DNA of 37,523 nt. It comes from an uncultured Bermanella sp. (GTDB lineage: Bacteria > Pseudomonadota > Gammaproteobacteria > Pseudomonadales > Oceanobacteraceae). A model generated the notes under the pieces. That model was not told where the DNA came from, searched no databases, and worked only from the letters and a program-made list of their open reading frames with translations. The position numbers and the translations under genes were made by a program. The DNA is taken from the NCBI GenBank assembly GCA_913058575.1, contig CAJXRF010000057.1:1-37523 (forward strand), in the 5' to 3' direction. Below are positions 6,079 through 25,702 of this stretch, one piece after another. Numbering within the stretch: the stretch's first letter is position 1; every line of letters starts with the position of its first letter.

Positions 6079-6137
6079 TTTATCTATTCTCTTGTTTAGA
6101 GGGCCCTATAGGTTTTTTAGTAAGTCTTATAAATTGC

Positions 6138-8146: not shown

Positions 8147-8182
8147 GGTGTGCTCCTAATTCTTTAATTTTTTAAGTCGTTT

Positions 8183-8210
8183 AAAAAGGCCCAATTTATA
8201 TAGGCCTTTT
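8183..8210 (-). terminator. Stem-loop with T-tract between doxX-like gene and reductase genes
   Basis: AAAAGGCC (8184-8191) pairs with GGCCTTTT (8203-8210) over an 11-base loop. Read on the minus strand the stem is followed by a run of five T. It would end or weaken transcription coming from the DoxX gene before the two reductase genes, so either the reductases have their own promoter or this is a partial attenuator. Confidence 0.65.
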
Positions 8211-8240
8211 CTATAGCTCTTTTTTAATACGGGCGGTTTA

Positions 8241-8642: not shown

Positions 8643-8775
8643 GGTTAACTCCAGTTTTGTAAGGTGTGCTAGCAATTTGGGTAAGGGGCTGAATGGGTCA
8701 TTCGCGCCCCTTTAAGTATGAAGTAAGCTTATCTGTTGATTGAGTCTGAACAAACAGTGCAACTGGCAAATTATA

Positions 8776-9754: not shown

Positions 9755-10362
9755 ATTAATTTATTGAATAGCAGGAAAAGTTCTAATTTTTAACCGTTTG
9801 GCTTTATGATGTGCGACTCCTATCTATTAGTGTAAGTAGCTTAACTTTTATTCGTTGGCTACATTTCGCTTGTTATCTTAATTTTGTTTTCTTAAAACCA
9901 ATGCTTATTGATTCGGCGTCAGAATTTCAATGGGTGTCGTGTTTTATAATTTTTTAAAAGTTTTTCTGCACTTTAGTTTTAAAAAGACTAGTAAAGCCAG
10001 GTCGACACGAAAAACCTCAATGAGAATGCATCACGAGAGATTGTAATTGTTCATTTTATCGGGGATTATTTTCCCATAGCCCCTTACTGCGTGGCTTGCC
10101 GCTGTTTTCTAGGCTGTTAGGTCACTTGATAAACACCTAAGTATCCACTTCTAAGCGAGCCTGGTATTCAATAACTTTTGGCATAACCATATTGTTAAGA
10201 GCTGCCTTAGTTTGCATTCTGTGACAAAAATCGGGCAGGTTGTCGTCATTGAAAAGTCTGTTTGATTGAGTTCATTTTATCTTTAGTGGTAATCTTTATT
10301 ACACGTTTTGCAGTATAGATAAGTGCAAAATGATTACTCATTAAAAAATAAAAAGGTTTAAA
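9755..10362. other. 608-bp intergenic region upstream of the secretion operon
   Basis: No open frame of useful length. It should hold the promoter of the secretion operon. Symmetric elements seen: GACAA-N12-TTGTC at about 10222-10243, GTAAT-CTTT-ATTAC at 10289-10302, and TTTTGCA (10306-10312) paired with TGCAAAA (10324-10330) over 11 bases. A TATAGAT (10314-10320) inside the last hairpin loop could be a -10 box, but no good -35 accompanies it, as often at activator-dependent promoters. Its length and symmetry density suggest regulated expression. Confidence 0.4.
10289..10330 (+). promoter_or_regulatory. Candidate activator-dependent promoter/operators of the secretion operon
   Basis: Two adjacent dyads (GTAAT-N4-ATTAC and TTTTGCA-N11-TGCAAAA) surround a TATAGAT about 43 bases before the first ATG. 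The AraC regulators of the locus are the natural candidates to bind here, but binding is not shown by the sequence. Confidence 0.25.
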
Positions 10363-10659
10363 ATGAGCAAGCAAATTTGTTGTGATGGTGTGGAAGTAAT
10401 TGGTTTTATTAATAACAGCGTGCGAGCAAAATTAATTTCAGTTATACCTGAAAAAAAAGCAGACGACAGCATATCCCGTCAAATAGAAGAGGCGGGAACC
10501 CTTATTATGTCACCAGAAGGATTTATTAATTGTTATCAAGCTTTTAATCAACTCTTTAAAGAGTTGATAGACAAAGGTGTTATTAATACTCAGCAAGCCA
10601 CGCCTTCTGCCACTCCCTCTGTAGCAGAAAAACCGACAGAGTCACCCAATTTTCAATAA
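10363..10659 (+). CDS. Small protein of unknown function heading the type I secretion operon (98 aa)
   Basis: I recognise no family. The N-terminus starts MSKQICCDGVEVIGF with a Cys pair, the middle (residues 30-75) looks alpha/beta and globular, and the tail from about residue 76 is low-complexity Gln/Thr/Pro/Ser-rich (QATPSATPSVAEKPTESP). There is no signal peptide or membrane helix. AAGG lies 7 bases before the ATG. The gene ends about 105 bases before the ABC exporter gene, on the same strand, with a stem-loop in between. Position suggests an accessory factor of export, such as a chaperone or regulator of the cargo, but this is inference from context only. A 22-base perfect palindrome lies in its coding sequence. 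Confidence 0.7.
   Translation: MSKQICCDGVEVIGFINNSVRAKLISVIPEKKADDSISRQIEEAGTLIMSPEGFINCYQAFNQLFKELIDKGVINTQQATPSATPSVAEKPTESPNFQ
10547..10568. repeat. 22-bp perfect palindrome inside the 98-aa gene
   Basis: ATCAACTCTTT is followed directly by its reverse complement AAAGAGTTGAT. It encodes part of FNQLFKELID. Such a perfect 11+11 dyad is not expected by chance in a window of this size. It could be a DNA-binding site or an RNA hairpin; the loopless centre favours a DNA site. Confidence 0.6.
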
Positions 10660-10716
10660 TCATTAGTCAGTAATAATTTATCTCTTACAGGTTTAATTAT
10701 CCTGATCAAGATTGGT

Positions 10717-10737
10717 GGCTGCATTTTTAATGCAGCC
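10717..10737 (+). other. Intercistronic stem-loop before the ABC exporter gene
   Basis: GGCTGCAT (10717-10724) pairs perfectly with ATGCAGCC (10730-10737) over a 5-base loop. No T-run follows, so it is not a standard intrinsic terminator. It stands 27 bases before the exporter start and may act in mRNA processing or in setting the ratio of the 98-aa protein to the exporter. Confidence 0.5.
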
Positions 10738-10764
10738 CTATTATGACATCTATTGGGGTGATGC

Positions 10765-12915
10765 ATGAATACCGGACTAGAATCTCTGTTAATGGTGGCA
10801 CGTTACCATCATATTCAGCCTTCCAAAGAAGCCTTGAACGATACATGGCAAAACAGCAGCACCGACTGCGCAGACCCTATTCAACACCTGCAAAATATCG
10901 CGAGATCCATCGGTCTTAATAGCGGTTTAATAGATGTGACTTGGGATAAATTATTAAAACTCGGCGGCGCTTTCCCCGTTATGGTGGTGCTTAACAACAG
11001 TAAATTTGTGGTGGCGTGTGGCGTTAAACTCAATGAGCAAGGGCAAGCGCTACTATTAGTGCAAGATCCTTTATCTAATAAAGAAAATGAATTACTGCAA
11101 TTACCCCAAACCACATTTTGTAAGGAGTGGGGCGGAAAAGTTATCTTGTTAAAACCCATTAATCAGGAATTGGAAGTTAAAAAACCGTTTGGATTTTCTT
11201 GGTTAATTGAACAAGCCTGTGGGCAAAAGAAACTGATTGCCCAAGTGTTTTTAATTTCTTTTGTGATGCATTTACTCGCCTTTGTGGTTCCCATTTTTAC
11301 CATGACGGTATTTGATAAGGTCATACGTTTCTCAGGGTATTCAACCCTGCATGTTTTATTTGTGGGGGCATTAATGATTCTGGTATTTAATGCTCTGTTC
11401 GGATATATGCGCAGTTTGTTGATACTGCATATGGCTGGTCGTTTAGAAATTATCATGACAGACCGCATCACTAAAAATATATTAGGCTTGCCTCTGTCTT
11501 TCTTCCAAAAAATACCCGCTGGTAAATTGCTTAAAAATATTCAAGACGCCAATCAGGTGCGGGAGTTTATTCAAGGTAACCTGCTTTATACCCTCATCGA
11601 AGCCACCTCATTTATTATCGTATTACCTGTATTATTTCTATTCAGTACAGAACTGACGTTTGTGGTGATTGCGCTTGCCAGCTTGATTGCCTTATCTATT
11701 TTACTGTCCATGAATACCCATAAAAAACGCATGACCAAACTTTATGAAGTGGAGGCGCAACGCCAGTCCATGATAGCCGAATCTATTATGGGGGTAGAAA
11801 CGCTTAAGTCTTTGGCCATTGAAGATGAATACTACAAAAAACTATTAAGTACTTCTGCCAAAGCATCTTACTTGCAAAAAAGTGTGGGGCGTTTATCGGC
11901 GGTACTCAGCGAGTTTAGCGGCTTTATTCAAAAATTAATGTCTCTGGTGATTATATGGTTGGGGGCTCAAATGGTGTTACAAGGGCAACTCACGATTGGA
12001 GCGCTCATTGCATTTAATATTATGGCAGGACGTATCGCAGGGCCATTGGTGCAAATGGTGGGGCTTATTAAAAAATACGAAGAAGTGGCCATCTCTATTA
12101 AGATGCTCTCTAAGGTATTAAATCAGCCTCCTGAAAGATTAAGAGAGGGCGGGATTACGCCCCCTTTAAAAGGTGCGGTTGAATTTCGTGCAGTGGATTT
12201 TTATTACGATAAAACGCAGCCTAAAACACTCGATCAAATTAACTTTCTTATAAAACCTGGCATGAAGGTTGGCATCGTTGGCCCTAGCGGCTCAGGTAAA
12301 AGCACGGTGGCTAAATTGTTACAGGGGTTGTTTAAACCCGATGGCGGTTATGTTCGTTTTGATGGTATGTCTATTAGTGAATTTGATTTAAATTATTTAC
12401 GCAGTAGCCTTGGGGTAGTGTCGCAAGACAGTTATTTATTTAAAGGCAGCGTGCATCAAAACATTGCTAAGGCCAGCCCAGTAAGTAGCCGAGAGAAAGT
12501 GATTGATGTGGCTAAATTAGTCGGCGCCCATGAATTTATCGAAAGCTTACCTCAGGGTTATGACACCGAGTTAGAAGAGCAAGCGGCTAACTTATCGGGG
12601 GGGCAAAGACAGCGACTTTGCTTTGCAAGAGCCTTATTACAAAAACCCAAGATTCTCATTCTAGATGAAGCCACCAGTGGCTTAGACGCACAAAGTGAAC
12701 ATTTAATATATGAGAACCTTAACCGTATTTGCGCCGGTGCTACCTTAATTAATATCAGCCATCGCCTGGCCAGTATGCCTGAAATGGATCTGATATTAGT
12801 TCTTGAATCCGGATCACTAGTGGCCTCTGGTAAGCATCAACAATTGTTGCAACAACCGGGCACCTACCAAGATTTATGGCAGCAACAGTTTTCCAGCGCG
12901 TTAGAGGTGGCCTAA
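10765..12915 (+). CDS. Type I secretion ABC exporter, HlyB/LapB type (716 aa)
   Basis: Fused inner-membrane permease and ATPase that would energise export of the cargo encoded downstream. Order: a C39 peptidase-like domain (about 1-125), a six-helix membrane domain (about 145-430), and the nucleotide-binding domain (about 465-716). The last has Walker A GPSGSGKST (from about residue 506), signature LSGGQRQR (about 610) and Walker B ILILDEATSGLD (about 630). The C39-like domain lacks the catalytic Cys (GLESLLMVARYHH where D-C-G is expected) and the His (SKFVVACG), so it cannot cleave a double-glycine leader. It more likely docks the cargo, as in HlyB. GGGG precedes the ATG by 6 bases. The TAA overlaps the next ATG. 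Confidence 0.95.
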   Translation: MNTGLESLLMVARYHHIQPSKEALNDTWQNSSTDCADPIQHLQNIARSIGLNSGLIDVTWDKLLKLGGAFPVMVVLNNSKFVVACGVKLNEQGQALLLVQDPLSNKENELLQLPQTTFCKEWGGKVILLKPINQELEVKKPFGFSWLIEQACGQKKLIAQVFLISFVMHLLAFVVPIFTMTVFDKVIRFSGYSTLHVLFVGALMILVFNALFGYMRSLLILHMAGRLEIIMTDRITKNILGLPLSFFQKIPAGKLLKNIQDANQVREFIQGNLLYTLIEATSFIIVLPVLFLFSTELTFVVIALASLIALSILLSMNTHKKRMTKLYEVEAQRQSMIAESIMGVETLKSLAIEDEYYKKLLSTSAKASYLQKSVGRLSAVLSEFSGFIQKLMSLVIIWLGAQMVLQGQLTIGALIAFNIMAGRIAGPLVQMVGLIKKYEEVAISIKMLSKVLNQPPERLREGGITPPLKGAVEFRAVDFYYDKTQPKTLDQINFLIKPGMKVGIVGPSGSGKSTVAKLLQGLFKPDGGYVRFDGMSISEFDLNYLRSSLGVVSQDSYLFKGSVHQNIAKASPVSSREKVIDVAKLVGAHEFIESLPQGYDTELEEQAANLSGGQRQRLCFARALLQKPKILILDEATSGLDAQSEHLIYENLNRICAGATLINISHRLASMPEMDLILVLESGSLVASGKHQQLLQQPGTYQDLWQQQFSSALEVA

Positions 12916-14591
12916 TGACTTCATCCTCACTCAATAAAAAAATCGAACAAACGCACAGTGCTAATGAAAATTCAGTGATTAATGAAAAGATCATTAATGT
13001 AGAAGAAGAGGCTGAGAAAGCAGCGTCAGCTGACATGACAAAATTTAGAAAATTAAAACTATTAATAAGCGGTAAAACCCGCTCTTTTTTAATGTCTTTA
13101 TTTTTAAAAATGTCTATTTTAAGTCGGGCAGGTATGGTTTTTAATAAAGGTTTATCAGCCTTTCAATCGCTTAAAAATAGCCCTTTGCTGGTTCGGCTTA
13201 AGTTGAGTCGTTTGATAAAACCTGGTAATCGTCAGTCTTCTGAAAATTCTGAGGATATTAATGATTTTACCAGTGCGGCATTTTTACCCGATTACTTACA
13301 GTTGCAACAGCGGCATGCCAACCGACTGCTATTTATTTTATCAAATGGATTAATGGCCTTTTTTCTCTGTATTTTAATCTGGTCAGCTCTTGCTGAGGTT
13401 GATACCTCTCTGGTGGCCAGTGGTGAAATCGTATCCACTAAACCCAACTCCGTCATTCAACCTATGACCGGTGGAATTGTCCGAGAACTAAAAGTAGAAA
13501 TTGGTGATCAAGTTAAAAAAGGAGAGCTATTACTGGTGTTAGATAGCATTCAGCAAAAAGCAGATTTAGACGCCGCACAATTACAAGCCCAAACCTTACA
13601 GGCGCGAATTATTCGCCTGCGTGCGCAACTGTTGGCAAAGCCAGCTAAGCAATACTCAGCAAGTGTCAGCATTAATATACTTGAAAAACAATTGTATGAG
13701 TCAGATATAAAGCAGCACCAGACGCGACTCGATTATATGGAAAAAGAGATTCAAACGCTTATTCTAAGCCAGCAGCAGCTCGCTGAAGAAAGCCAAATGA
13801 TGGCTAGGGAACTTGATGTGGTGGCACAACTTACTCTTGTTCGAAAAAATCTTTATGAGCGAGAAACTGAAGCCTACAACCGTAACGGGCCTAGAAAAGT
13901 AGAATATCTCACCACTCAACAAGGCCATTTGAGCGGCCAGCGCCAGTTAGCGCAACTCAAAAATCAAATTGCGCGCTTGTCTAAAGAAATAGCATTAAAA
14001 GAAGTGAGTCGTTTAAATTACCTGGCCGATCGAAACCTTACTATTAGTAAAGAGCTGGAAGTGAACTCAACCAGTTATGCAGAACAACTGATTAAAATGG
14101 CCAAATACAAGCAAGCCCATGACGTCGTTAACATATTAGCCCCCCATGACGGCATTGTATTGGCCATGGTAGAAAAAGGTCCGGGCTCGGTGGTGCAAGC
14201 TGGGGAAACGTTATTGCAGTTGGTGCCAACCGATGTGCCTTTAGAAGCGGAAATATTTATTTTGCCCAGTGACATCGCCCATGCCACGCAAGGGGCCCAA
14301 GTGTCACTAAAATTAGACACTCTGCCTTTTAGTCAATATGGCTACTTAACCGGCAAGTTACGCATAATCGGTGAAGACACCATTAAAGAGCCGTTAACGG
14401 GGCAAAATATTTTAAGTTATCGTGGCCGAGTTACTTTGGAAGAGGGTGGGCTGCGCAATCTTCCTGGGCACTTTAAATTAATTCCCGGAATGTCGCTTGA
14501 ATCTAATATTAAAACGGGTCAGCGCCGTTTAATTAGTTATTTCTTTTACCCTGTTTATCGGGCGCTAGATGAAGGGTTCAGAGAGCCATGA
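12915..14591 (+). CDS. Type I secretion membrane-fusion (HlyD family) adaptor (558 aa)
   Basis: Periplasmic adaptor joining exporter and outer-membrane channel. I chose the ATG at 12915, overlapping the exporter stop (TAATG) with GAGG 7 bases before it, over an ATG at 12876. One membrane helix spans about 137-158, followed by the HlyD start EVDTSLVASGEIVST. A split lipoyl domain follows (GGIVRELKVEIGDQVKKGELLLVLDS, later VNILAPHDGIVLAMVEKGPGSVVQAGETLLQLVP), with a long coiled-coil hairpin between. The beta-barrel end contains the family's PGMS-type segment (LIPGMSLESNIKTGQR). The cytoplasmic N-terminus is about 136 residues, more than twice the usual, acidic at 15-40 then basic/hydrophobic at 44-105. 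Its stop overlaps the next start (ATGA). Confidence 0.94.
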   Translation: MTSSSLNKKIEQTHSANENSVINEKIINVEEEAEKAASADMTKFRKLKLLISGKTRSFLMSLFLKMSILSRAGMVFNKGLSAFQSLKNSPLLVRLKLSRLIKPGNRQSSENSEDINDFTSAAFLPDYLQLQQRHANRLLFILSNGLMAFFLCILIWSALAEVDTSLVASGEIVSTKPNSVIQPMTGGIVRELKVEIGDQVKKGELLLVLDSIQQKADLDAAQLQAQTLQARIIRLRAQLLAKPAKQYSASVSINILEKQLYESDIKQHQTRLDYMEKEIQTLILSQQQLAEESQMMARELDVVAQLTLVRKNLYERETEAYNRNGPRKVEYLTTQQGHLSGQRQLAQLKNQIARLSKEIALKEVSRLNYLADRNLTISKELEVNSTSYAEQLIKMAKYKQAHDVVNILAPHDGIVLAMVEKGPGSVVQAGETLLQLVPTDVPLEAEIFILPSDIAHATQGAQVSLKLDTLPFSQYGYLTGKLRIIGEDTIKEPLTGQNILSYRGRVTLEEGGLRNLPGHFKLIPGMSLESNIKTGQRRLISYFFYPVYRALDEGFREP

Positions 14592-16138
14592 GTCACTATC
14601 AGATAAAGAGTCACGGTATTAAATTACTTCTGTCAGTTATTACAATTTTGTTGTTATCGGGCTGTGCCAGTGTCAATCAGCCATTAACATCCCAAGACAT
14701 TCATACCCGTACCCAAAAAGTGAAAATGGCATTGAAGCAGCTGCCACTTACTGAGCCCCTTACTCTTGAAATGGCCTTGGCTCGGGCCATAAAATACAAT
14801 TTAGATGTTGAAATACAACGTTACTCTCAGTTAATCAGCAATAACGATTTAAGCCAGGTGCGTTTGGGTTTATTGCCCGAGCTTAGCGCTTATGGCACCT
14901 ATGCCAAACGAGATAAACTTAATGTGGGCACCGACCCAGATGGTGACCAAAAAGAAAGAAACCAAATTCAGGCGAGTTTAAGTTGGAATTTATTAGATTT
15001 TGGATTGGGTTATCTCAGTGTCCAGCAAGCTAAAAATCAAGTGTGGATTGAACAAGACAACCTGCGCATGGTGTTAAACAAAATGGTGGCGGCGGTACGT
15101 TTGGCTTACTGGCAGGCACAACTTTATGAAAAACGTTTTAATCAAGCTAAGGGGTTACAGCAACGATTTATAGAGGTGGAAAATAAACTGAATCAAACCA
15201 GCCATTTAATGCTGGATGATCCATTAAAGATTTTAACCTTTAGAAAAGAAATTAAAATACTCACCAAACGCTTATTGGAATTTGAAAAGTCGGTTAAAGA
15301 ATCAAAAATTAATTTGGCCAACCTAATTAGTTTAAGCAATATAAATTTTACTCTGAGCCCTGCCTTACCGGAAACGCTCAATTTGGTGTTTGCTAATTTA
15401 ATTTCAAGTAATACCGATTCTCCAAAATTGGATATAGCATCATTAGAAGCCTACGCACAGCAGCACCGCTATGAGTTACGCCAAAATGATTATTTACAGC
15501 GCATTAGTCAGTTGGAGTTAGACGGTGCCTACTGGAGCCTATTACCTGGTTTAGAGATATTCAACGGTTACCATTACAACGATGACGATGATCTAGAGCA
15601 TCAAGAATGGAACCGCTGGGGCAGTACTATTACTCTGGATCTATTAGGTTATCTGCAAGCGCCCGCTGAAATAGAAGGGCACGAGCTGAACATTACTCAG
15701 CAACAAATAAAGGGATTATCCAGCGCGTTAATGGTTAATAAACAAGTCAGGTTAGCCGCATTAAACTTACCCATGTTAGAAAAAAATTATTATATGGCTA
15801 AAGAGTTAGCAAGTATCGATCAAGAAATTTATCGTCTACTTGAGTCTCGTCAGGCCTTTGCTTTATTAGATGAGGTGGAAGCTCATAAAGCAGCCATTAA
15901 TTCCTTGCTGGCCAATGTAGACAAAGACCGAAGCTATTTACAGGCCATAAATGGCGCGCACCAGTTGCAGCAGGCTTTGGGCATTGAGCAATTGCCGTTG
16001 GCCAATTTTGATCTGCCCTTAACAGAGCTAAGCCAAGCTCTAAAGCGTTACCGTTACCCTAAAAATATTGAGGAAAAACTAAAAGATTTTAAATTACAAA
16101 GCGACCAATTTGAAGATGATTCAAAGCCAAACAATTAA
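14588..16138 (+). CDS. TolC family outer-membrane channel, lipoprotein (516 aa)
   Basis: Outer-membrane exit duct of the secretion system. The N-terminus is a lipoprotein signal ending in the lipobox LLSGC (Cys26), unlike E. coli TolC but like many OprM-type or cargo-specific outer-membrane factors. Two TolC-like repeats are visible: LTLEMALARAIKYNLDVEIQ opening the first helical hairpin, NDLSQVRLGLLPELSAYGTY entering the barrel, and DGAYWSLLPGLEIFNGYHYN entering the barrel of the second half. Long amphipathic helices lie between. It overlaps the adaptor gene by four bases, so exporter, adaptor and channel are one translationally coupled unit. A short hydrophilic C-terminal tail is present. 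Confidence 0.93.
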   Translation: MSHYQIKSHGIKLLLSVITILLLSGCASVNQPLTSQDIHTRTQKVKMALKQLPLTEPLTLEMALARAIKYNLDVEIQRYSQLISNNDLSQVRLGLLPELSAYGTYAKRDKLNVGTDPDGDQKERNQIQASLSWNLLDFGLGYLSVQQAKNQVWIEQDNLRMVLNKMVAAVRLAYWQAQLYEKRFNQAKGLQQRFIEVENKLNQTSHLMLDDPLKILTFRKEIKILTKRLLEFEKSVKESKINLANLISLSNINFTLSPALPETLNLVFANLISSNTDSPKLDIASLEAYAQQHRYELRQNDYLQRISQLELDGAYWSLLPGLEIFNGYHYNDDDDLEHQEWNRWGSTITLDLLGYLQAPAEIEGHELNITQQQIKGLSSALMVNKQVRLAALNLPMLEKNYYMAKELASIDQEIYRLLESRQAFALLDEVEAHKAAINSLLANVDKDRSYLQAINGAHQLQQALGIEQLPLANFDLPLTELSQALKRYRYPKNIEEKLKDFKLQSDQFEDDSKPNN

Positions 16139-16180
16139 TCGACTATTGATGCGTCAGTGACAGGCATGCAGGGTAATACA

Positions 16181-17260
16181 ATGTATAACATCCATCAGCA
16201 CACCAATGTTTTACAAATTCGTTTTATTCTTCAGGCTGCAAAATACTTTAAAATTGACCAACAGGAATTACTAGATCACGCGAAAGTCAGTATTGATGAT
16301 ACGCTTTTACCCAATGCCCCAGTGCCAGTGGAGCAGGCTATTCGGCTATGGGATGCTGCTGAACAACTCAGTGGCGATCCTTTAATAGCTTTAAAAAGTG
16401 GCGGCATGACCAATACTTATCAGCAATCACATTTATTTAGTTTGGCTTGTGCCAGTAAAAACTTAATGGATGCTAGCCAGTACATCGTTCGCTATGAAAA
16501 AAACTATACGGGTATCATTCGCCATAACATCACTATTAATAGCGATGCGGTCACCATGGAGCTCATTACACCGGGAGATAATATCGAGGGCTTTCGCTCA
16601 ACGGTAGAGCGCCACATGAGCGTTATGGTTACCGCCTATAAGATTATTATTCCTCCAGAAGAGCAAGTTAACACAAGCCCTGATGTTTATTTTCGTCACC
16701 AAGCAGCGGCTCCTATCAGCGAATATCAAGCCGTACTGGGTAAAAAACTGCATTTCAATCATGATCGTAATATTTTGGTTTTTTCATTAACCACCATGCT
16801 TGTGGATAATCCTTTGTACAACCCGGATATGGAAGAAGTATTGCTTGAAGTGGTGCAGAGAAATGACGAACAAGCCTTAGAGGTTGACAGTTTAATCACT
16901 CAGGTTGAGAAAGTAATATTAAATAATCTTCATAACACAGACCTTAATATACATTTTATCGCCAAGCAGTTTTCCATGGGGCCAAGAACCCTACAGCGGC
17001 GTTTAAGCGAAGAAAATACCAGCTTTAATGTCTTGCTGAATAAAATCCGTAATCAGCGGGCCATGATTTTAATCAGCGATCCGGCACGAAATATGAGCCA
17101 AATCACACAGCTCTTGGGCTTTCAGAAACAATCTGCTCTCAATCAAGCGTTCTCTCGTTGGCACGGCACAACACCCAAAAAATATCGGCAAAAACTGTTT
17201 TCAAAAGAGTCTGAAAACGACCCTTTAAAGCACCAGAATGTATCAGAAGAAGAATGCTAG
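16181..17260 (+). CDS. AraC family regulator with arabinose-binding-like N-terminus (359 aa), copy 1
   Basis: The first ~190 residues match the PF12625-type effector-binding domain (IRLWDAAEQLSGDPLIALKSG block). The C-terminal ~100 residues hold the double helix-turn-helix: LNIHFIAKQFSMGPRTLQRRL...NTSFNVLL, then ISQ-type second helix and the closing LGFQKQSALNQAFSRWHGTTPKKYR. I chose the ATG at 16181: AGGG precedes it by 7 bases and it aligns residue for residue with the start of the paralogue at 23861. A GTG at 16157 and ATG at 16166 are possible. It is 42 bases after the channel gene and upstream of the cargo gene, so it probably controls both; the inducer is unknown. Confidence 0.93.
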   Translation: MYNIHQHTNVLQIRFILQAAKYFKIDQQELLDHAKVSIDDTLLPNAPVPVEQAIRLWDAAEQLSGDPLIALKSGGMTNTYQQSHLFSLACASKNLMDASQYIVRYEKNYTGIIRHNITINSDAVTMELITPGDNIEGFRSTVERHMSVMVTAYKIIIPPEEQVNTSPDVYFRHQAAAPISEYQAVLGKKLHFNHDRNILVFSLTTMLVDNPLYNPDMEEVLLEVVQRNDEQALEVDSLITQVEKVILNNLHNTDLNIHFIAKQFSMGPRTLQRRLSEENTSFNVLLNKIRNQRAMILISDPARNMSQITQLLGFQKQSALNQAFSRWHGTTPKKYRQKLFSKESENDPLKHQNVSEEEC

Positions 17261-17410
17261 GCATGGTTAAAAGTAAAGGGCATTAAGGGGCGTTTAAGGC
17301 TAAGTCGCACCTATGAATTCACTGACGTGATTGGTAAGCCTAGCCCTATTGGAACCCGTTTCAAGTGCGCTTATGATTTACCTCATCAGTCGTATTCCAG
17401 TGCCCTTTTT

Positions 17411-17438
17411 AAAACTGAAAACTGAAAACTAAAAGTGG
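17411..17438 (+). repeat. Tandem 7-base repeats upstream of the cargo gene
   Basis: AAAACTG, AAAACTG, AAAACTA and AAAAGTG follow each other without gap. The first and fourth units are 21 bases apart, a spacing common for AraC-family half-sites. Their role as regulator sites is inference. Confidence 0.45.
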
Positions 17439-17561
17439 TTCGGTCTTATTCAACTAACCAACAGGATGATGCAGGAGTAACCCAGAGAAAATTAAGAGCA
17501 ATCTAAGAGTAAGCAACTTTTAAAATGTTTTTTCAGATCACGACAAACAAATACAAAACGT

Positions 17562-17588
17562 CATTAGCCCAAGGCTAGTGCCTTTTTC
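17562..17588 (+). terminator. Intrinsic terminator or attenuator before the cargo gene
   Basis: CATTAGCC (17562-17569) pairs with GGCTAGTG (17573-17580), eight pairs including one G-U, over the loop CAA, followed by CCTTTTTC. It would separate the transporter/regulator transcript from the cargo, or attenuate a leader. Confidence 0.6.
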
Positions 17589-17651
17589 TCAAGGACGTAG
17601 TTAGAGCCTAAAAATGAAAAATAAAATTAATAATAGTTAAGGAAATAAATT

Positions 17652-20600
17652 ATGGGTTGGTTTAGTAAAAAATATAAAAAGGCCAAAAAGGCGGCTAAAA
17701 AGGCCGCAGAAAAAGCCAAAAAGGCAGCTGAAGCCGCTAAAAAAGCCGCCATTGCAGAAGCGAAAGATGCTGCCAATGCCGCTAACGATGTGGCCAAAGA
17801 CATTGGCATCGATCCTAAAGACATTTTAGAAGGCGCCAAATACCTCGCCTCTGGAAATTGGAATGGCGACAACGGCAATGATAACAAATCATTGGTGCAC
17901 GCTAAGTTAACCATGAACGGTAAAGGGGGCAACGATAACCTAAAAGGGTATGGCGCCTACGCCAAAGTGAATGGCGACAGCGGCAACGATACCGTTAAAG
18001 CTTACGGCGGTTACGCAAAAGCCAATGGCGGGTCAGGTAATGACAAGGTGGTGGCTGAAGGAGGTTATGCCACTGCCAATGGTGACAGTGGTAATGATAA
18101 TGTCAGTGCGAAAGGGGCTCATGCGAAAGCCACTGGCGGCAGCGGTAACGATACCGTAAGTGCCCAAGGGGCCAATGCACAAGCCAGCGGCGGCAGTGGT
18201 AATGACAAGGTCACCGCCAGTGGTGTGTCAGCGCAAGCGTCGGGTGGAGATGGCAATGATACCGTTAAGGCAGAAGGGGTTTATGCAAAAGCCAGCGGTG
18301 ATGGTGGTAATGATCACGTTACGGCTAACGGTGCATCTGCTCAAGCATCTGGCGGCGATGGCAATGATACGGTTATCGCCAACGGCGCTCATGCACAAGC
18401 CAGTGGTGGCGACGGCAACGACACCGTAAAAGTAGATGGTGTTTATGCTCATGGCACCGGTGGTGCCGGAGACGATAAAGTCATCGTAAACGGTGTTTAT
18501 GCCAGTGGCTCGGCCGGCAATGGCGACAACTATTTAGAAGTAAACGGCGCCTATGGTTCAGGCACTTCCGGTTCCGGTGATGATGAGGTGTATGTTAACG
18601 GGGCTTATGCGCAGGTTGATACGGGAGCCGGCAATGACGAAGTACATGTTATTGGTGCGGGGGCGGCCATTGCCAACACAGGTGCCGGTGACGACAAGGT
18701 TTATGTTTACGGCACTTATGCACAAGTGGATGCTGGCTCGGGTTCCAATACCGTTGAAGCCTACGGGGCTGGGGTTAATATTAATACCGGCAACGACCAA
18801 GATAAGATCACCAGCGGTGCCGGTGTTGCTTATATTAATAGTCGCAATGGTGATGATGACATTGCCGCCTATGGTGGTGTGAACTATGTGTTGGCTGGCA
18901 GCGGCGACAACAAAATTATTGTGGGCGGCGGAGCCAACATTGTTCAAGCGGCTGATGGCGACAATGATGTAAAAGCTTACGGCGGAGCCAATGTTTTATT
19001 AATTGGCCACGGCGATAATGACATTGATGCTTATGGCGGTGCCAATTTTGTATTCACTGGTAATGGTCATAATAATATCGAAGCCGGTGGTCGCTTAAAC
19101 ACCTTACTCACAGGTGATGGTAATGACGATATTGTGGCCTTAGGCGGTGACAACATTATTTTTGCCGGAGATGGTAATAACCAAATCATTGCCATTGGTG
19201 GGCTTAATTTAATTACAGCCGGTTCTGGCAACGATTTAATTATTGCCGAAGCAGGTGGTAACGTCATTTTGGCTGGCAATGGCAACAACGATGTTTTCGT
19301 GGCTGGCTTGGCTAACTTAGTGATCACAGGAGACGGCAACGACCAAATTTATTCTGTGGCACTTTACAATGTGTTGTTTGCTGGCGATGGCAACAATACC
19401 GTGGGGGCTTTAGGGCAGTACAATTTATTATGGGCCGGAGATGGCAATGACTTATTAATTGCAGGGGGGCAGGGCAACTTAATTTTGGCCGGTGCCGGCA
19501 ATAACAGCGCGATCATGCTGGGGCAAGTTAATGGCATGATTTCCGGTGATGGCAATGATCTTGCGGTTGCATTAGGCCAGCAAAACTTGGCGACTTTAGG
19601 CGGCGGTAATAATACCTTTATTGGCATTGGCCAAAATAACGGGCTCATTACCGCATCTGGTGATGACTTTGCTTTAAGCATTGGTCAAACCAACGTGTTA
19701 CTGATGGGCAACGGTGATAACTTTGGCGTCACAGTGGGGCAAAATAACCTCATTTGGGGAGGCGATGGTTTTGATACTCAAATTGCTGTGGGGCAAAACA
19801 ATATTTTGCTGGCTGGCAATGGTGAAAATCAATCTGGCATCAGCGCTAACTTACCCAGTGGTGAATTAGATTTACCCTGGTTTGATTTTCAAATTCCAGA
19901 TTTTAGCGAACAACTTAATCACTACACTTCCAATAGTTATTTACCGGTAGACATTGCCAATGTTCAGGTGGGTATCGGGGTTAATAACTTATTTATCTCT
20001 GGTACTGGCAACGACGTGGCCATTGCTGTGGGTAAAAATAATGTGGTGGTCAGTGCTTCTGGCGATGACATTACTATTGCTGCCGGACAAAATAATTTAA
20101 TTGTCTCGGGTGATGGTAACGACATTACCACTACGCTTGGTTTAAACAATATTGTATTCGCGGGCGACGGTGCCATTGATGTTACCGTTGGGGCATTTTT
20201 CAAGTACAACATTTTTCTTGGAGAAGGCGGCACAGATGTCATGGTGGGCGTACTGGGTAAAGCCAATGCGTTCTTTGGTGGCACTGGCAACGATGTGTTA
20301 GTGGCGTCGTTAAGCAAAGATAATATTTTAGTGGGTGGCAGTGGCAGCGATGTGCTAATTACCTTTGGCACCATGAATAACTATTTAGTGGGTGATAATG
20401 AATTCACTATCGACAGTCACATGTATGGCAACTTTGGCGCTGCCAGCAGTAATGCACTTGACTGGTTAGGCACTTATGCGCAGGTGGGCTATTACGGAAA
20501 ATCAATCTTAAAAGGTTGGAGTTCGTTAAACAGCTTATCCAATTCCATTGACACTAATAGCCAAGAAATTGCCGCTGGGGTGTATCAAACCATCAGTGAT

Positions 20601-23558
20601 GAAGTAGAACCTATTGCAGATGGCTATCAGGGTATCAGTGACACCCTTGATACGTTTGGGGTTAACTTTATGGGCGAACAACTGGCCGACATTAGCCTAG
20701 ATGAACTATTAGGCACTGAACTGGGCAGCATTAGCCCCGACAGCGTATTTGGCGAAGACAACTGGTTTTCAACCGTAGTAGACATGCTGAGTTATGCCAC
20801 CGATTACGAGTATGACGATGAAGACTTTACTTACAGCGTTGATGTGAGCGATGTGGTGCCAGATGCCGCCAGTGATGTGGACACCGATGAATACGAAAAC
20901 TACCAAGCAGACGAAGGTGAAGAGGAAGATTCATCTAACCATAATTCAACATCAGGCTGGGATGAGATCGCCACGGGCGTTAACGAAGTTGGCGATGTGT
21001 TAGCCGATGCCCATCTAGACGATTTAATTTTTGGTGCCATGGAATACATGCAAGACAGCGAAGCCATGATGGATTTGGCCACGTATTTTGCTGATTTAGA
21101 TTCCGGTTATAGCGAATGGTTTGGCGACGAAGACGACGAAATTCAAACGTCTACCTTATCGGAAGCGGGCATTCGATTTGATGCTGCGCTGGATTTAGAA
21201 TTTCCAGAAATTCAATTGTCTGCCGAAGACAACACCGACTTTGACGTGCCCTTTACGGGCATTGATGTGGGCTCATACGAATACGATATTCCCACGATTC
21301 CAGCACTGGAAACCAACGATGTGGATTATGAATACGGTGAACTGGCCAGCTATGGCATTCCCGAAATTGATCTGGCAACGCTTTCTTCTCCTTCATTTGA
21401 TGTGCCGCAAATCACCTTGCCTAATATGCAGGTCGACGGTGATTGGGCCAATGGCTTTGATGCCGATTTGGGAGACGTAGATGTTGATATGGGAGCCTAT
21501 GGTTCGTTCTATTCAAACTATTGGATCGAAGATTTAATTAATCAAGGTGTGTGGGAAAACATGTTCACCTATCCTGATGAAATTCTGGAATACGACTTCG
21601 CCGCTGAAGACGCCATCATTGGGCAGTTGTTAGGAGAAGGACTTTTGGCCGCGACCATTGGCGGCAGTATGAATCAGATGGATTCATTAAGCGGTGACTG
21701 GGATTTAATGGCCAGCATACTCGGCAAAGAAAACTACGCCCATGGCGGTGAAGGAGGCGATGTATTTATAGGGCTATTAAACTATAAGAGTGCTTTCTTT
21801 GGTGGTGAGGGTGATGACATGGCCAACATGATTGGCTGGCAAAATCTTGTCTCAGGTGGCGAGGGTGACGATTACGCCTTAACCTTTGGTTTTAGTAATT
21901 ATTTCCTTGGTGGAGAAGGCAACGACATTGCCACCCAAATTGGGGTTAACAACTCGGGTTATGGTGAAGAAGGCAATGACTTATTAACCCAAGTGGGCGT
22001 GAAAAATATTGGCTTAGGGGATGAGGGAGACGACGTAGTTATTTCCATGGGGTTAAACAATTATCTGGGCCAAGATTATTTATATGATACCCCCATGACC
22101 ACCGCACAATCAGGAGACGACATGCTCATTGCGATAGGCATGAACAATGTTTCTTGGGGTGGCGACGATAACGATACGTTAATTTCTTTAGGAAACTGGA
22201 ACCTACTACAAGGGGGCAGCGGTGACGATTTAGCGTTTGCCTTTGGTAGCAGCAATTACCTTTACGGAGATGACTACTCTCTCGCCGCCATTGGTGACGG
22301 TAACCTAGATATTGATTTAAATGTGGGTACAGATCACGTTGACTTTATGGATGACTCTGAAGCAGCCGGCGATATTATTGACGAAGATAGCACCGCCGAA
22401 TTAGGACTAAGCTATAGCCAATCTGCTGACACTGAAAACGCCGGTAACGATCTTTTATTCATGATCGGTGATGACTCATTTGCTTATGGCAATAAGGGCA
22501 ATGATGCGTTGTTAGCAGTGGGTGAAAACAATCAGTTATTTGGTAATAGCGATAACGATTTAGTGCTGAGTGCCGGTACCGATAACCTGCTTGAGCTAGG
22601 TAATGGCAATGACATTGCGTTAAGTTATGGTTACGACAATGAAATCAATGGTGGCAGTGGCCAGGATATTATTGTGGCCTTAGGAGATGGCAGCGATATA
22701 AACGGCGGCAGTGATAACGACTTTATTCTGTATGCCGGAGCAGATGCGCAAGTTTCTGGTGGCGAAGGCTCTGACATTATTATGGGTCTTGGTTGGGGTT
22801 TACTGGATGATAGTTTATATGCAGTAGGCGAAAACCAAATCTTTGGCGACAGCCTTAATGACCTAACGTATTTAGTAGACGCGTTAGATCTTTCTTTGCA
22901 ATCGGCTTACAGCTTAGAACTTTCTTCTTTAGAAGACTTGCTTTTGTACGGCGGCACGCAATTCTTAGAAGGTGGTGACGGTGATGATGTATTAATCGCA
23001 GGTATAGGCTCACAGATTAATCTTGCCGGTGGCGCTGGTGATGATACTTACGTTTACTATCTAGACAGTGGCGTATTAAACATCAGTGATGATCAAGGCA
23101 GTAATGAATTAATGATCTTCACTAACAGTGATCAAAGTGACGTGCTGTTGGATATGTCTAACCTAGTGTTGTCTAGCAATGAGCTAGGGTCACTGCAATT
23201 AGATGTGGTGATTGATGGTCAATCGTTTGGTCAAGTAAACCTAGAAGGGTTTGATGTGAATGCCTCTATTACCGTTGGAGACAGCAGTTTTAGTTTCTCT
23301 ACCACGGTATTTGATCTTTATGATTATGCCAATGATCCTAATAACCTAGTGGAGGACTTACTGGTAGCCTACACACCTGACATAGCTGAGCTGATGGAAA
23401 GCGGTATACGCGAAGCGATTTCATTGTTCGATGGTGATCAAGCTGATACCTCTTTGTTCGAAATGCTGGATGACGGATTTGACGGTGTAGTGGCGTCAAT
23501 TTCAGATGGCTTTAGTGACGCAGCGGTACAAATGGAGTCGGCCTTAGCGGCGGCGTAA
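17652..23558 (+). CDS. Giant RTX-like beta-solenoid protein, predicted type I secretion cargo (1968 aa)
   Basis: I see this order. Residues 1-50: Lys/Ala-rich amphipathic helix after MGWFSKKYKK. Residues 71-719: 36 repeats of 18 residues, pattern x-x-G-x-G-N-D-x-U-x-x-x-G-x-x-(A/N)-U-U (U hydrophobic), one residue inserted near 341. About 772-916: eight more. About 917-1357: acidic, largely non-repetitive region with a Tyr/Asp/Glu-rich stretch. About 1358-1540 and 1597-1719: further repeats. About 1774-1800: a near-canonical RTX turn (EGGDGDDVLIAG, GGAGDDTYVYY). Final ~90 residues: acidic, ending in LAAA, likely secretion signal. The G-x-G-N-D half should bind calcium; the other half should not. 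No enzyme domain seen. AAGGAA precedes the ATG. Function is probably structural or adhesive, unproven. Confidence 0.9.
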   Translation: MGWFSKKYKKAKKAAKKAAEKAKKAAEAAKKAAIAEAKDAANAANDVAKDIGIDPKDILEGAKYLASGNWNGDNGNDNKSLVHAKLTMNGKGGNDNLKGYGAYAKVNGDSGNDTVKAYGGYAKANGGSGNDKVVAEGGYATANGDSGNDNVSAKGAHAKATGGSGNDTVSAQGANAQASGGSGNDKVTASGVSAQASGGDGNDTVKAEGVYAKASGDGGNDHVTANGASAQASGGDGNDTVIANGAHAQASGGDGNDTVKVDGVYAHGTGGAGDDKVIVNGVYASGSAGNGDNYLEVNGAYGSGTSGSGDDEVYVNGAYAQVDTGAGNDEVHVIGAGAAIANTGAGDDKVYVYGTYAQVDAGSGSNTVEAYGAGVNINTGNDQDKITSGAGVAYINSRNGDDDIAAYGGVNYVLAGSGDNKIIVGGGANIVQAADGDNDVKAYGGANVLLIGHGDNDIDAYGGANFVFTGNGHNNIEAGGRLNTLLTGDGNDDIVALGGDNIIFAGDGNNQIIAIGGLNLITAGSGNDLIIAEAGGNVILAGNGNNDVFVAGLANLVITGDGNDQIYSVALYNVLFAGDGNNTVGALGQYNLLWAGDGNDLLIAGGQGNLILAGAGNNSAIMLGQVNGMISGDGNDLAVALGQQNLATLGGGNNTFIGIGQNNGLITASGDDFALSIGQTNVLLMGNGDNFGVTVGQNNLIWGGDGFDTQIAVGQNNILLAGNGENQSGISANLPSGELDLPWFDFQIPDFSEQLNHYTSNSYLPVDIANVQVGIGVNNLFISGTGNDVAIAVGKNNVVVSASGDDITIAAGQNNLIVSGDGNDITTTLGLNNIVFAGDGAIDVTVGAFFKYNIFLGEGGTDVMVGVLGKANAFFGGTGNDVLVASLSKDNILVGGSGSDVLITFGTMNNYLVGDNEFTIDSHMYGNFGAASSNALDWLGTYAQVGYYGKSILKGWSSLNSLSNSIDTNSQEIAAGVYQTISDEVEPIADGYQGISDTLDTFGVNFMGEQLADISLDELLGTELGSISPDSVFGEDNWFSTVVDMLSYATDYEYDDEDFTYSVDVSDVVPDAASDVDTDEYENYQADEGEEEDSSNHNSTSGWDEIATGVNEVGDVLADAHLDDLIFGAMEYMQDSEAMMDLATYFADLDSGYSEWFGDEDDEIQTSTLSEAGIRFDAALDLEFPEIQLSAEDNTDFDVPFTGIDVGSYEYDIPTIPALETNDVDYEYGELASYGIPEIDLATLSSPSFDVPQITLPNMQVDGDWANGFDADLGDVDVDMGAYGSFYSNYWIEDLINQGVWENMFTYPDEILEYDFAAEDAIIGQLLGEGLLAATIGGSMNQMDSLSGDWDLMASILGKENYAHGGEGGDVFIGLLNYKSAFFGGEGDDMANMIGWQNLVSGGEGDDYALTFGFSNYFLGGEGNDIATQIGVNNSGYGEEGNDLLTQVGVKNIGLGDEGDDVVISMGLNNYLGQDYLYDTPMTTAQSGDDMLIAIGMNNVSWGGDDNDTLISLGNWNLLQGGSGDDLAFAFGSSNYLYGDDYSLAAIGDGNLDIDLNVGTDHVDFMDDSEAAGDIIDEDSTAELGLSYSQSADTENAGNDLLFMIGDDSFAYGNKGNDALLAVGENNQLFGNSDNDLVLSAGTDNLLELGNGNDIALSYGYDNEINGGSGQDIIVALGDGSDINGGSDNDFILYAGADAQVSGGEGSDIIMGLGWGLLDDSLYAVGENQIFGDSLNDLTYLVDALDLSLQSAYSLELSSLEDLLLYGGTQFLEGGDGDDVLIAGIGSQINLAGGAGDDTYVYYLDSGVLNISDDQGSNELMIFTNSDQSDVLLDMSNLVLSSNELGSLQLDVVIDGQSFGQVNLEGFDVNASITVGDSSFSFSTTVFDLYDYANDPNNLVEDLLVAYTPDIAELMESGIREAISLFDGDQADTSLFEMLDDGFDGVVASISDGFSDAAVQMESALAAA
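17862..19808 (+). repeat. 36 phased 54-bp coding repeats of the cargo gene
   Basis: The units are in frame and 54 bases long, with one 3-base insertion around repeat 15/16. Repeats 3-11 are the most alike at DNA level (GGCAACGATACCGTTAA-type cores), pointing to recent expansion. Repeats 19-36 are more diverged in DNA but keep Asn at position 16 in every copy. Open frames on other strands here are by-products of this periodicity. Confidence 0.9.
19965..20399 (+). repeat. Second solenoid block, eight repeats
   Basis: About eight degenerate 18-residue turns continue the design, with GVNN, GKNN, GQNN, GLNN, KYN, GKAN, KDN and TMNN at the Asn position, separated from the first block by ~40 non-repeat residues containing a Trp/Phe/Pro-rich segment (LPWFDFQIPDF). 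Confidence 0.75.
21723..22808 (+). repeat. Third and fourth solenoid blocks
   Basis: Repeats with G-G-E-G-D-D cores and GWQN, GFSN, GVNN, GVKN, GLNN, GMNN, GNWN at the Asn position run to about 22270. An acidic spacer follows, and then about seven more turns (GNKGND, GNSDND, GNGND, GGSGQD, GGSDND, GGEGSD) run to about 22800. Confidence 0.75.
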
Positions 23559-23860
23559 TTCAATAAATAATCACTGGGGAATTTTTCCTCAGTGATTTTT
23601 CTAGTCGATTTTATCTAAAAAAACGTCTTGGTAATTTTAAAAGACGAAAAAATTCCAACCATTGTCATTAACAAAGTTTTCTATAAAAACTCATTGTTTA
23701 TAATTAATGGTTTCAATTTATCGCATTTTTCTCATCCTTTTCTCTGTTAACAAAATGATTAAGCTGTAATAATAAAAAACAACAAAAATAAAAATAACAC
23801 CCAAGCAGCACTCATAATGTTCAAAGAATGTTGGACTGGGTATTTGAAAGAGGTTGCTTT
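23559..23860. other. 302-bp gap between the cargo gene and the second AraC gene
   Basis: It begins with a strong terminator (23569-23600). An inverted repeat CGTCTT (23624-23629) with AAGACG (23641-23646) over 11 bases follows, then AT-rich sequence that may hold the promoter of the second AraC gene. Confidence 0.45.
23569..23600 (+). terminator. Rho-independent terminator of the cargo gene
   Basis: ATCACTG (23570-23576) pairs with CAGTGAT (23590-23596). GGGAA (23577-23581) pairs with TTCCT (23585-23589), one pair being G-U. The loop is TTT and a T-tract follows. It is the clearest intrinsic terminator in the window and ends the cargo transcript. Confidence 0.9.
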
Positions 23861-24913
23861 ATGTTTCCTGCCAACACCTGTACCAACGCACTTCAAATTC
23901 GTTTTATTCTACAAGCTGCAAAATATTTCAATCTTTCTACAAAAGATTTATTGTCCTCAGCGAATGTTATTATTGATAATCATTGTTTGCCCAGCGCCCC
24001 CATACCCGTTGAAGTAGCCATCCGGCTTTGGCAGGCAGCTGAGCAACTTAGTCGTGACCCTCTTATTGCATTAAAGAGTGGCACTATGACTCAGACCTAT
24101 CAGCAGTCGCCATTATTTGGGTTAGTGTGTGCCACTAAAAATATGATGAAAGCCTGTAAATACATTATTCGTTACCAAAAAAATAATTTAGGGATGGTTA
24201 ACCATCGCATGGGATTCGAAGGCAATAAGGTGATTGGGGAATTGGTGACCCCAGCTCATCACGATGAAGAGCTTCGTCCATTAATTGAGCGTCAAGCAAG
24301 CGTTATGTTGTCTTTTTTTAAGGTTATTTTTTCGCCAGAAGTTCAAAAAAATGCCATGCCAGAGATATATTTCAAGCACCAACCTAATGGACCTGTGGAG
24401 CATTACGAAAAAATACTGGGTGTAAAAGTTCACTTTGGTCATTCTAAAAATTTATTTGTGGCGCCAAGGCACCTTATGGATATGAACAATCCATTACACA
24501 ACCCTGAAATGGAAGAAGCATTGTTAAGCTTAACCCAGCGACACGATAGAGGCATTACCGAAGGCACTAATTTAATTGTTCAAATTGAAGAATTTATTTT
24601 AAAAAATTTAAATAATCGTTATTTAAATATTGATTTTGTGGCCACCAGTTATGCCATTGGACCAAGAACATTGCAGCGTCGCTTAAAAGAACAAAATACC
24701 AGCTTTAATGTATTGCTAAATAATGTTCGCTATAACCGAGCCATGCAACTGATTGTTGACCCTGATATATCGATTAGTGAAATTGCAACTGACCTTGGCT
24801 TTCAAAATCAGTCTGCGTTAAATCAGGCTTTTACTCGCTGGACCAACATTACCCCTAGGCAATACCGCGATGCTTGTATTGATAATCCAGTCACTCAATA
24901 TGCTTTTAATTAA
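23861..24913 (+). CDS. AraC family regulator with arabinose-binding-like N-terminus (350 aa), copy 2
   Basis: Paralogue of the regulator before the cargo gene: LQIRFILQAAKYF is identical at the same distance from the start, and the DNA-binding end is nearly the same (GPRTLQRRLKEQNTSFNVLLNNVR, then LGFQNQSALNQAFTRWTNITPRQYR). Identity is roughly half over the full length. AGAGG sits 8 bases before the ATG at 23861, preferred over an in-frame ATG at 23828. It follows the cargo terminator and so needs its own promoter. The two copies may answer different signals, or one may antagonise the other; both ideas are inference. Confidence 0.93.
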   Translation: MFPANTCTNALQIRFILQAAKYFNLSTKDLLSSANVIIDNHCLPSAPIPVEVAIRLWQAAEQLSRDPLIALKSGTMTQTYQQSPLFGLVCATKNMMKACKYIIRYQKNNLGMVNHRMGFEGNKVIGELVTPAHHDEELRPLIERQASVMLSFFKVIFSPEVQKNAMPEIYFKHQPNGPVEHYEKILGVKVHFGHSKNLFVAPRHLMDMNNPLHNPEMEEALLSLTQRHDRGITEGTNLIVQIEEFILKNLNNRYLNIDFVATSYAIGPRTLQRRLKEQNTSFNVLLNNVRYNRAMQLIVDPDISISEIATDLGFQNQSALNQAFTRWTNITPRQYRDACIDNPVTQYAFN

Positions 24914-25237
24914 AAAGTATTTTACTGAGAACAATTTTTTAAAAAGCAAAAATTGCTAATGGAAAACCACGGCAATTCTTCATCTTTGGCGGTCTCAATT
25001 CACAGAACTGCACATAACAATAGTTAAAATATCAGTACAAAAAAGTCACTACAAATGATCAAAGAGACAAGACTTCATTTAGCCTACTACAAAGTGTCTA
25101 ACATGATATTACGAAAACGTGCCAATATTGCCCCGTAATGGGAATTATTCTTATCAATCTTAATATTTGTATCTTATGGGTGTGAGGGAGTTCTAGGTAG
25201 CTCAATATGAATTAGGAAGAAATATTAAAGGTTAATA
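24914..25237. other. 324-bp intergenic region, nothing recognised
   Basis: The gap lies between convergent genes (copy 2 AraC on + and the two-helix membrane protein on -). I see no open frame, no strong hairpin with a T-run and no repeat. Confidence 0.4.
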
Positions 25238-25702
25238 TTATTTTTCTTTGTGTTTAGGGGCCACCGCCTCTTGAATTGCGGATTCGTTAATATGATGAAT
25301 GTTCCCTAACGCGCTAATTTGCATGCTTGCTTCGTCAATTATCTCATCATACAAGGCCAACACATCAGGGTTAAATTTAGGCGTGTCTTCTGCGGTTAAT
25401 TTAAAGAGCTGCATCTGATTTAGAAAGTTATTTAAAACGTGTTGCGTTGACGACATCATGGCAGTGTAAATTTTAAGCTTCTCGGAAGACACTTTACTGG
25501 CGCGGTTACGCTTTAAAAGATCCACAAAGGCAAAGATAAGAAAAATGAAAAGCGGAATAATAAGCTCATCTATTTCGTATTCTTCAAGGCTATGTAATAG
25601 GCTTACCAGCTTTTCAAAAAAGTCCACATTAAATATGATGCCTGCCATGAGCAGGAAAAGGGATAATGCCAAACCAATGAGGGTGATTGTGTAGTTCTTC
25701 AT
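25238..25702 (-). CDS. Two-helix membrane protein with a DHp-like cytoplasmic segment (154 aa)
   Basis: Two membrane helices (about residues 5-25 and 46-63) enclose a short acidic loop, with a basic stop KRNRAS. The cytoplasmic part from about 68 to 135 is helical and contains MSSTQHVLNNFLNQMQL, where His and the following LNN recall the phosphoacceptor helix of histidine kinases (H-x-L-N-N). A later helix (YDEIIDEASMQISALGNI) could form the second arm of a four-helix dimer. No ATP-binding domain follows, so it is not a kinase. It might be a phosphotransfer or dimerising membrane protein; this is a resemblance, not an assignment. The preceding GG-rich ribosome site is weak. Confidence 0.7.
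   Translation of the reverse strand: MKNYTITLIGLALSLFLLMAGIIFNVDFFEKLVSLLHSLEEYEIDELIIPLFIFLIFAFVDLLKRNRASKVSSEKLKIYTAMMSSTQHVLNNFLNQMQLFKLTAEDTPKFNPDVLALYDEIIDEASMQISALGNIHHINESAIQEAVAPKHKEK

Follow-up and report, generated by a model that had tools for sequence, protein, structure and literature searches.

A stand-alone protein composed mostly of putative MARTX-type one-sided RTX repeats, encoded beside a type I secretion system in an uncultured Bermanella sp.

The window analyzed here is the stretch of 37,523 nucleotides at positions 1 to 37,523 of contig CAJXRF010000057.1 (assembly GCA_913058575.1) of an uncultured Bermanella sp., in which an RTX protein of 1968 amino acids is encoded. 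Overlapping genes for HlyB-, HlyD- and TolC-like proteins were found just upstream of the RTX gene on the same strand. To judge from its sequence, the protein appears to be a case of the one-sided RTX repeat of MARTX type employed as a stand-alone protein, so that neither the fold nor the repeat family is taken to be new. The features of the locus and of the protein, together with the closest plasmid-borne relative, are collected in Table 1.

Table 1. Coordinates of the RTX protein, its parts, the neighboring genes and a plasmid relative (window positions unless stated otherwise).
Feature	Position	Strand	Basis or remark
ABC exporter of type I secretion, HlyB-like, N-terminal C39-like domain	10765..12915	+	PF00664, PF00005, PF03412
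HlyD-family periplasmic adaptor, overlaps ABC gene	12876..14591	+	TIGR01843 260.5 bits, cut-off 208.65
TolC-like outer-membrane channel, overlaps hlyD	14588..16138	+	PF02321 OEP 63.7 bits, cut-off 22
AraC-family regulator 1	16157..17260	+	PF12625, PF12833
RTX protein, 1968 aa	17652..23558	+	single open reading frame
Residues 1-70, basic head rich in Ala and Lys (first 50 residues: 19 Ala, 15 Lys), probably an amphipathic helix	17652..17861	+	isoelectric point 10 (1-50)
Residues 73-343, zone I, 15 turns	17868..18680	+	column 7 Val/Leu, outer columns polar for the most part (14 turns from 91)
Residues 344-613, zone II, 15 turns, hydrophobicity rising on both faces	18681..19490	+	Asn at column 14 from 398; AlphaFold2 model 416-595
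Residues 614-721, zone III, 6 turns	19491..19814	+	bulky columns 8 and 10, not 7: MARTX consensus register
Residues 723-771, short non-repeat insertion	19818..19964	+	sequence reading
Residues 772-916, second solenoid block	19965..20399	+	lags 19/18; units 802 and 820 over shuffle threshold
Residues 917-1345, acidic spacer	20400..21686	+	composition
Residues 1346-1541, third block	21687..22274	+	Pfam RtxA_C PF21735, 35.5 bits, cut-off 30
Residues 1542-1597, acidic insertion	22275..22442	+	composition
Residues 1598-1712, fourth block	22443..22787	+	lag 18 identity 0.30 for 1560-1720
Residues 1713-1880, RTX C-terminal block	22788..23291	+	NCBIfam NF033943
Residues 1881-1968, acidic C-terminal end, presumably the signal for type I secretion	23292..23555	+	position and composition only
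Terminator-like hairpin, 13 pairs, right after RTX stop codon	23569..23597	+	consensus scan
AraC-family regulator 2	23828..24913	+	54% identity with regulator 1 across 340 aa
One-sided RTX protein and two HlyC genes, Acaryochloris marina pREC3	L037 2489-8310		plasmid typed as conjugative

When residues 71-719 were compared with themselves, the identity reached 0.46 at a lag of 18 residues versus 0.15 at a lag of 9. Thirty-six turns were delimited in this region, beginning at residues 73, 91 and so on up to 325, and then from 344 to 704, all of the steps being of 18 residues save one of 19 (325 to 344). The period, the number of turns and the single one-residue insertion agreed with a preliminary description of the locus made from the sequence alone. 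With the columns numbered from the first Gly of GxGND, column 3 was Gly in 35 of the 36 turns, column 5 was Asp (24) or Asn (12) in every turn, column 11 was Gly in 32, and column 14 was Asn or Ala in 33. A turn profile, trained on the same 36 turns that were then scored, placed all of them above 8.2, a value that the best score exceeded in 5% of 300 whole-protein shuffles; turns 73 (15.4) and 380 (15.5) lay under the highest single shuffle (16.3). Units 802, 820, 1504 and 1686, which were outside the training set, also exceeded 8.2.

The return of this design in at least three later blocks, as had been claimed, was found at about residues 772-916, 1346-1541 and 1598-1712, with non-repeat stretches between them; lags of 19 and 18 were the highest for residues 760-900. 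Tandem copies at the DNA level (54 or 108 bases) were detected in the first block only and with 72-77% matches, hence most of the turns must have diverged long ago at that level. The largest non-repeat stretch, the acidic spacer, comprised 429 residues with 97 Asp plus Glu and 3 Lys plus Arg, and no calcium-loop motif was found in it. When the spacer (residues 897-1346) was searched in 390 genomes, it matched only its own genome and none of the 389 others. In the head, the hydrophobic moment of residues 5-40 was 1.16 versus 0.42 after shuffling, and only one of 1000 shuffles was as high. At the other end, the best stretch for NF033943 (RTX hemolysin) was 1699-1844, with 85 bits, far under the whole-protein cut-off of 1000.

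None of the 50 calcium-loop motifs of the protein had a partner at +9 and 27 had one at +18; for an ordinary RTX protein encoded elsewhere in this genome the corresponding counts were 10 of 26 at +9 and 9 of 26 at +18. An ordinary two-faced RTX roll was ruled out by the complete lack of +9 partners, in agreement with the one-sided architecture first proposed.

The unit was then compared with described families. According to an excerpt of a 2010 review (PMC3034196), the MARTX C-terminal repeat has 18 residues, X(V/I)XXGXXNX(V/I)XXGDGXDX, with the core G-7x-GxxN. This core occurred 53 times in the RTX protein (mean of 200 shuffles 4.2, maximum 13), at least six of the eight consensus positions were present in 19 windows of the chain (mean of 100 shuffles 0.18, maximum 2), and two windows agreed at all eight. 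The corresponding Pfam model, PF21735 RtxA_C (C-terminal repeat from RTX toxins, 18 positions, curated cut-off 30 bits), passed its cut-off on residues 1345-1545, with 35.5 bits when the protein was scanned in pieces and 34.7 in the genome scan; it reached 15.7 bits, under the cut-off, when the whole protein was taken in one scan, and among the other seven pieces it was listed for 769-929 only (16.2 bits). In the genome scan RtxA_C exceeded its cut-off in this RTX protein only, and the 14 control genomes gave no match above it. A new repeat family was rejected, since the unit matches both the published MARTX repeat and RtxA_C; the preliminary description had raised the possibility of a new surface or extracellular protein family.

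The profile comparison with the ordinary RTX repeat gave a mixed answer. PF00353 was not listed in the full-length scan of the protein, and its 19 matches in the genome scan all fell in two other proteins; nevertheless, it just passed its cut-off of 23 on residues 341-720 (23.3 bits), stayed under the cut-off on four other pieces and was not listed for 71-340. The NCBIfam RTX protein models matched partially and far under their whole-protein cut-offs, among them NF012221 MARTX_Nterm (370-724, 17.2 bits, cut-off 700). Elsewhere in the same genome, contig C49 (L002, 859-3252) encodes a 797-aa RTX protein of the ordinary two-faced kind, in which PF00353 matched 15 times and next to which lies a frame labeled ABC-transporter-like by eye; four PF00353 matches lay at about 15642-16040 of contig C65, in an open frame of 4900 residues.

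An AlphaFold2 model spanning residues 416-595 (10 turns) was a one-sided solenoid, as had been anticipated, and superposed on region IV of the Marinomonas primoryensis ice-binding protein MpIBP (3P4G) at 1.8 A over 180 residues. A one-sided calcium-loop solenoid fold like that region is thus predicted for these 10 turns, and calcium binding by the turns is predicted from the motif and the fold. MpIBP had also been put forward as the closest analogy; this held for the predicted fold, but a sequence search reaching to E 10 did not list MpIBP, and the unit matched the MARTX repeat instead. The observation initially made on this protein was confirmed and its interpretation was partly supported.

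Furthermore, a gradient along the solenoid was observed, an addition to what had been described. Turn 73 was excluded from these counts and 35 turns were considered. In zone I (91-340, 14 turns) column 7 was Val or Leu in all of the turns, columns 15 and 17 carried no bulky hydrophobic residue and column 14 was Ala in 13. Column 7 was still bulky in all 11 turns of zone II counted (416-613), and columns 8, 10, 15 and 17 were bulky in 64, 55, 91 and 82%, respectively. In zone III (614-721, 6 turns) a bulky column 7 fell to 17% and columns 8 and 10 reached 100%. Hydropathy averaged over columns 8, 10, 15 and 17 rose along the 35 turns (Spearman 0.86), with means of -1.85 (91-340), -1.52 (four turns, 344-415) and +2.45 (416-720). 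The register changed from columns 7/9 to 6/8/10 (r 0.68; none of 20000 shuffles of the turn order was as high), and column 14 was Ala (15), Gly (1) or Val (1) in the first 17 turns and Asn in all of the next 18. By our own mapping, the V/I of the MARTX consensus falls at column 8 and the hydrophobic residue of the ordinary nonapeptide at column 7; in P0004 and P0005, which served as two-faced controls, the nonapeptide hydrophobic position was bulky in 98-100% and the neighboring positions in 17-41%. The exterior appears to turn hydrophobic along the protein, a reading that is kept with caution.

Relatives were searched for by tblastn over 72,556 plasmids, and 122 records were obtained, none covering 80% of the protein. 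The best match was WP_012166780 (P0002) of Acaryochloris marina, a protein of 1365 aa with 34% identity over 670 aa, which shares a short basic head, a long one-sided 18-residue solenoid, a non-repeat spacer, a second solenoid, an RTX-like C-terminus and the lack of Cys. Annotated as a calcium-binding protein, it differs from the Bermanella protein in passing PF00353 firmly (259 bits, 28 stretches), in adjoining two genes for HlyC acyltransferases, with 133 and 136 bits, and in its spacer, which was read as Pro/Leu-rich instead of acidic. An annotated HlyD gene lies across the origin of that record. A similar rise of the outer columns was seen in this relative, from about -1.7 to +3.7 with a later drop (36 pattern-fitting units).

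Relatives were examined at 5 of 12 loci outside the window (L002, L004, L007, L008, L011), in 5 of 8 other genomes (L016-L019, L021), in regions of 3 of 10 other genomes (G446, G712, G701), in 4 of 15 other genomes (L051, L053, L054, L057) and in three plasmid records (L035-L037). Most were two-faced by eye. Short one-sided runs were seen in L017, L018, L035 and L053, and long ones in L037 and in two G446 proteins; one-sided stretches also occurred within otherwise two-faced RTX proteins, for example on a plasmid of Vibrio sp. THAF190c. The one-sidedness of the G446 protein P0006 is a reading by eye, since the strict calcium-loop expression found a +18 partner for only one of its nine motifs. 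No rise of hydropathy was present in the two G446 proteins (means -0.66 and -0.52, 5 units each). In genome G446 (L039, 5973-9485), a single frame holds a one-sided RTX stretch as well as matches to cadherin-like, Calx-beta and reprolysin-like metalloprotease domains. The open-licence literature on one-sided or 18-residue RTX rolls and on cyanobacterial RTX proteins with acyltransferases did not describe stand-alone shells, among the matches listed.

The lack of Cys and an RTX-like C-terminus are usual in type I substrates, and the synteny suggests that the RTX protein would be exported through the adjacent HlyB-HlyD-TolC system. The exporter matched TIGR01846 HlyB with 589 bits, under the cut-off of 725.55, and in HlyD 158 residues precede the TIGR01843 match, which begins at residue 159. 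No second ATPase and no HlyC were found among the 17 scanned window proteins (of 31 frames of at least 120 aa). In eight genomes of the same genus (72-100% complete) neither the RTX protein (E 0.001) nor the window HlyD (E 1e-30) had a match, and among 35 other genomes of the family a single HlyD, 29% identical, passed E 1e-30. This joint absence from the genus fits one accessory module, although the base composition of the region was unremarkable. A search of genome contigs with P0001 returned no relative; that with HlyB gave four loci, and the two examined (L042, L043) had no similar substrate. Against plasmids, TolC and HlyB retrieved only general type I relatives among the best 15 listed of each. 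The hairpin after the RTX gene comes from a scan of 9700-25300 in which 23 sites were found and 14.2 were expected. The RTX gene lies between the two AraC-family regulators, as though one of them had been copied to its other side. On the minus strand at 4834-8675, a questin-oxidase-like gene and a DoxX gene lie divergent from a LysR regulator, together with two similar frames that we take to be glutathione-transferase-like; this cluster looks like one for quinone or aromatic detoxification.

Regarding function, we propose, as a reading about evenly balanced between right and wrong, that this extracellular RTX protein leaves by type I secretion and that MARTX-type one-sided repeats make up most of its chain, in other words that it is an effector-less MARTX-like shell. 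Secretion and fold, taken jointly, are highly probable, and engagement of a membrane, proposed by analogy, is somewhat less likely than not. The unfolded protein would leave the cell through the neighboring HlyB-HlyD-TolC channel. Once it is outside, folding would be nucleated by calcium at the C-terminal RTX block and would then take in the 18-residue turns, coiled as long rods with one row of calcium loops. The basic head and the polar first turns could hold one end soluble, and the later turns, with bulky hydrophobic outer columns, might make contact with a membrane or some other hydrophobic surface. Membrane contact of the hydrophobic half is suggested by analogy with MARTX repeat regions that act without effector domains: the MARTX pore is described in an excerpt of PMC5218395 as enough to kill cells when these domains are missing.

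Several points weigh against this proposal. Asn replaced Asp at column 5 in 12 of the 36 turns, which may weaken calcium binding, and similarity between repeat proteins exaggerates kinship. No cysteine protease is present (no Cys and no such Pfam match) and no effector domain was found; a search of the genome for HlyC had no match, although its control matched nowhere and absence is not shown by it. AlphaFold2 is reported in part of PMC11795689 to overpredict beta-solenoids for repeat sequences. Which columns point inward and which outward was assumed from the way polar and apolar residues alternate in zone I and, because the bulky residues stand at columns 6/8/10 and not 7/9 from residue 614, the side chains of zone III could flip, with the bulky residues inward and an exterior that is not greasy. 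Additionally, the MARTX of V. cholerae is described in the excerpt of PMC3034196 as not disrupting membranes.

The main rival is a type I-secreted adhesin or matrix protein, which we consider possible though somewhat doubtful, in which the solenoids would be stiff spacers and residues 917-1345, 723-771 and 1542-1597 ligand-binding parts emerging from the rod. The rod is indeed interrupted by insertions, the analogous MpIBP, an RTX adhesin, anchors its own cell to diatoms (excerpt of PMC6891781), and ligand-binding domains of RTX adhesins are said in part of PMC12077191 to emerge from split domains. Nevertheless, no ligand-binding, retention or Ig-like domain reached the Pfam cut-off in the eight scanned pieces, and the spacer was without a relative in the 389 other genomes. 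The hydrophobic faces of adjacent solenoids might instead pack side by side in a self-assembling, curli-like extracellular fiber or layer, which seems improbable. An ice-binding protein like MpIBP region IV deserves hardly any credence: the predicted one-sided fold is the same, but Thr of the ice face (x-G-T-G-N-D, column 2) was present in none of the 36 turns. Ice binding was ruled out by this missing row, and the preliminary description, in which the replaced Thr had been noted, had not implied it either.

Returning to the shell proposal, a bolder and rather unlikely extension would be that effector-less MARTX-type shells, in this host and in the cyanobacterium, form an unrecognized class of secreted membrane-active solenoids, one of which preserves, turn by turn, how the ordinary RTX register, with its polar exterior and Ala core, gives way to that of MARTX, with a hydrophobic exterior and an Asn ladder, the gradient being the insertion device of MARTX pores. 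We know of no structural account of how MARTX repeat regions cross membranes. A protein of 1968 residues that isolates MARTX-type repeats, and in which column 14 switches sharply from Ala to Asn while hydrophobicity rises steadily, offers a small natural test object.

Compared with known systems, the protein resembles the MARTX C-terminal repeats (PF21735) in the period of 18, the core G-7x-GxxN and the GDGxD loop, and the MARTX holotoxins in having Gly-rich repeats in both halves. In the tblastn listing, an rtxA MARTX gene (212 bits) and a gene annotated as C80 peptidase (208 bits) matched in three pieces each. The Bermanella protein differs from the MARTX repeats in its 36 unbroken turns, in the Ala, Gly or Val that takes the place of the core Asn in the first 17 of 35 turns (from 91), and in zone I, which retains the ordinary RTX hydrophobic position. 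A MARTX toxin itself was ruled out by length (1968 aa, under the 3212-5206 residues given in the excerpt of PMC3034196), by the lack of Cys, by the operon (rtxHCA with divergent rtxBDE and TolC elsewhere in MARTX loci, HlyB-HlyD-TolC on one strand here) and by the repeat classes, the N-terminal 20- and 19-residue classes of MARTX not being seen in a protein with period 18 from 73 and one step of 19; on this last point the weak NF012221 MARTX_Nterm match at 370-724 points the opposite way. For RTX adhesins, retention and Ig-like parts gave no Pfam match over the cut-off in the head or spacer pieces, where no dedicated model was run. CyaA blocks and ordinary RTX rolls (PF00353) carry the nonapeptide on both faces, in contrast to the loops described here. 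MpIBP region IV is, like this protein, a one-sided calcium-loop solenoid, as predicted for the latter, which has 18 instead of 19 residues per turn, no Thr row and a GxxN second half. The protein would connect, within a single chain, the repeats of MARTX toxins with ordinary RTX rolls and with the solenoid of MpIBP.
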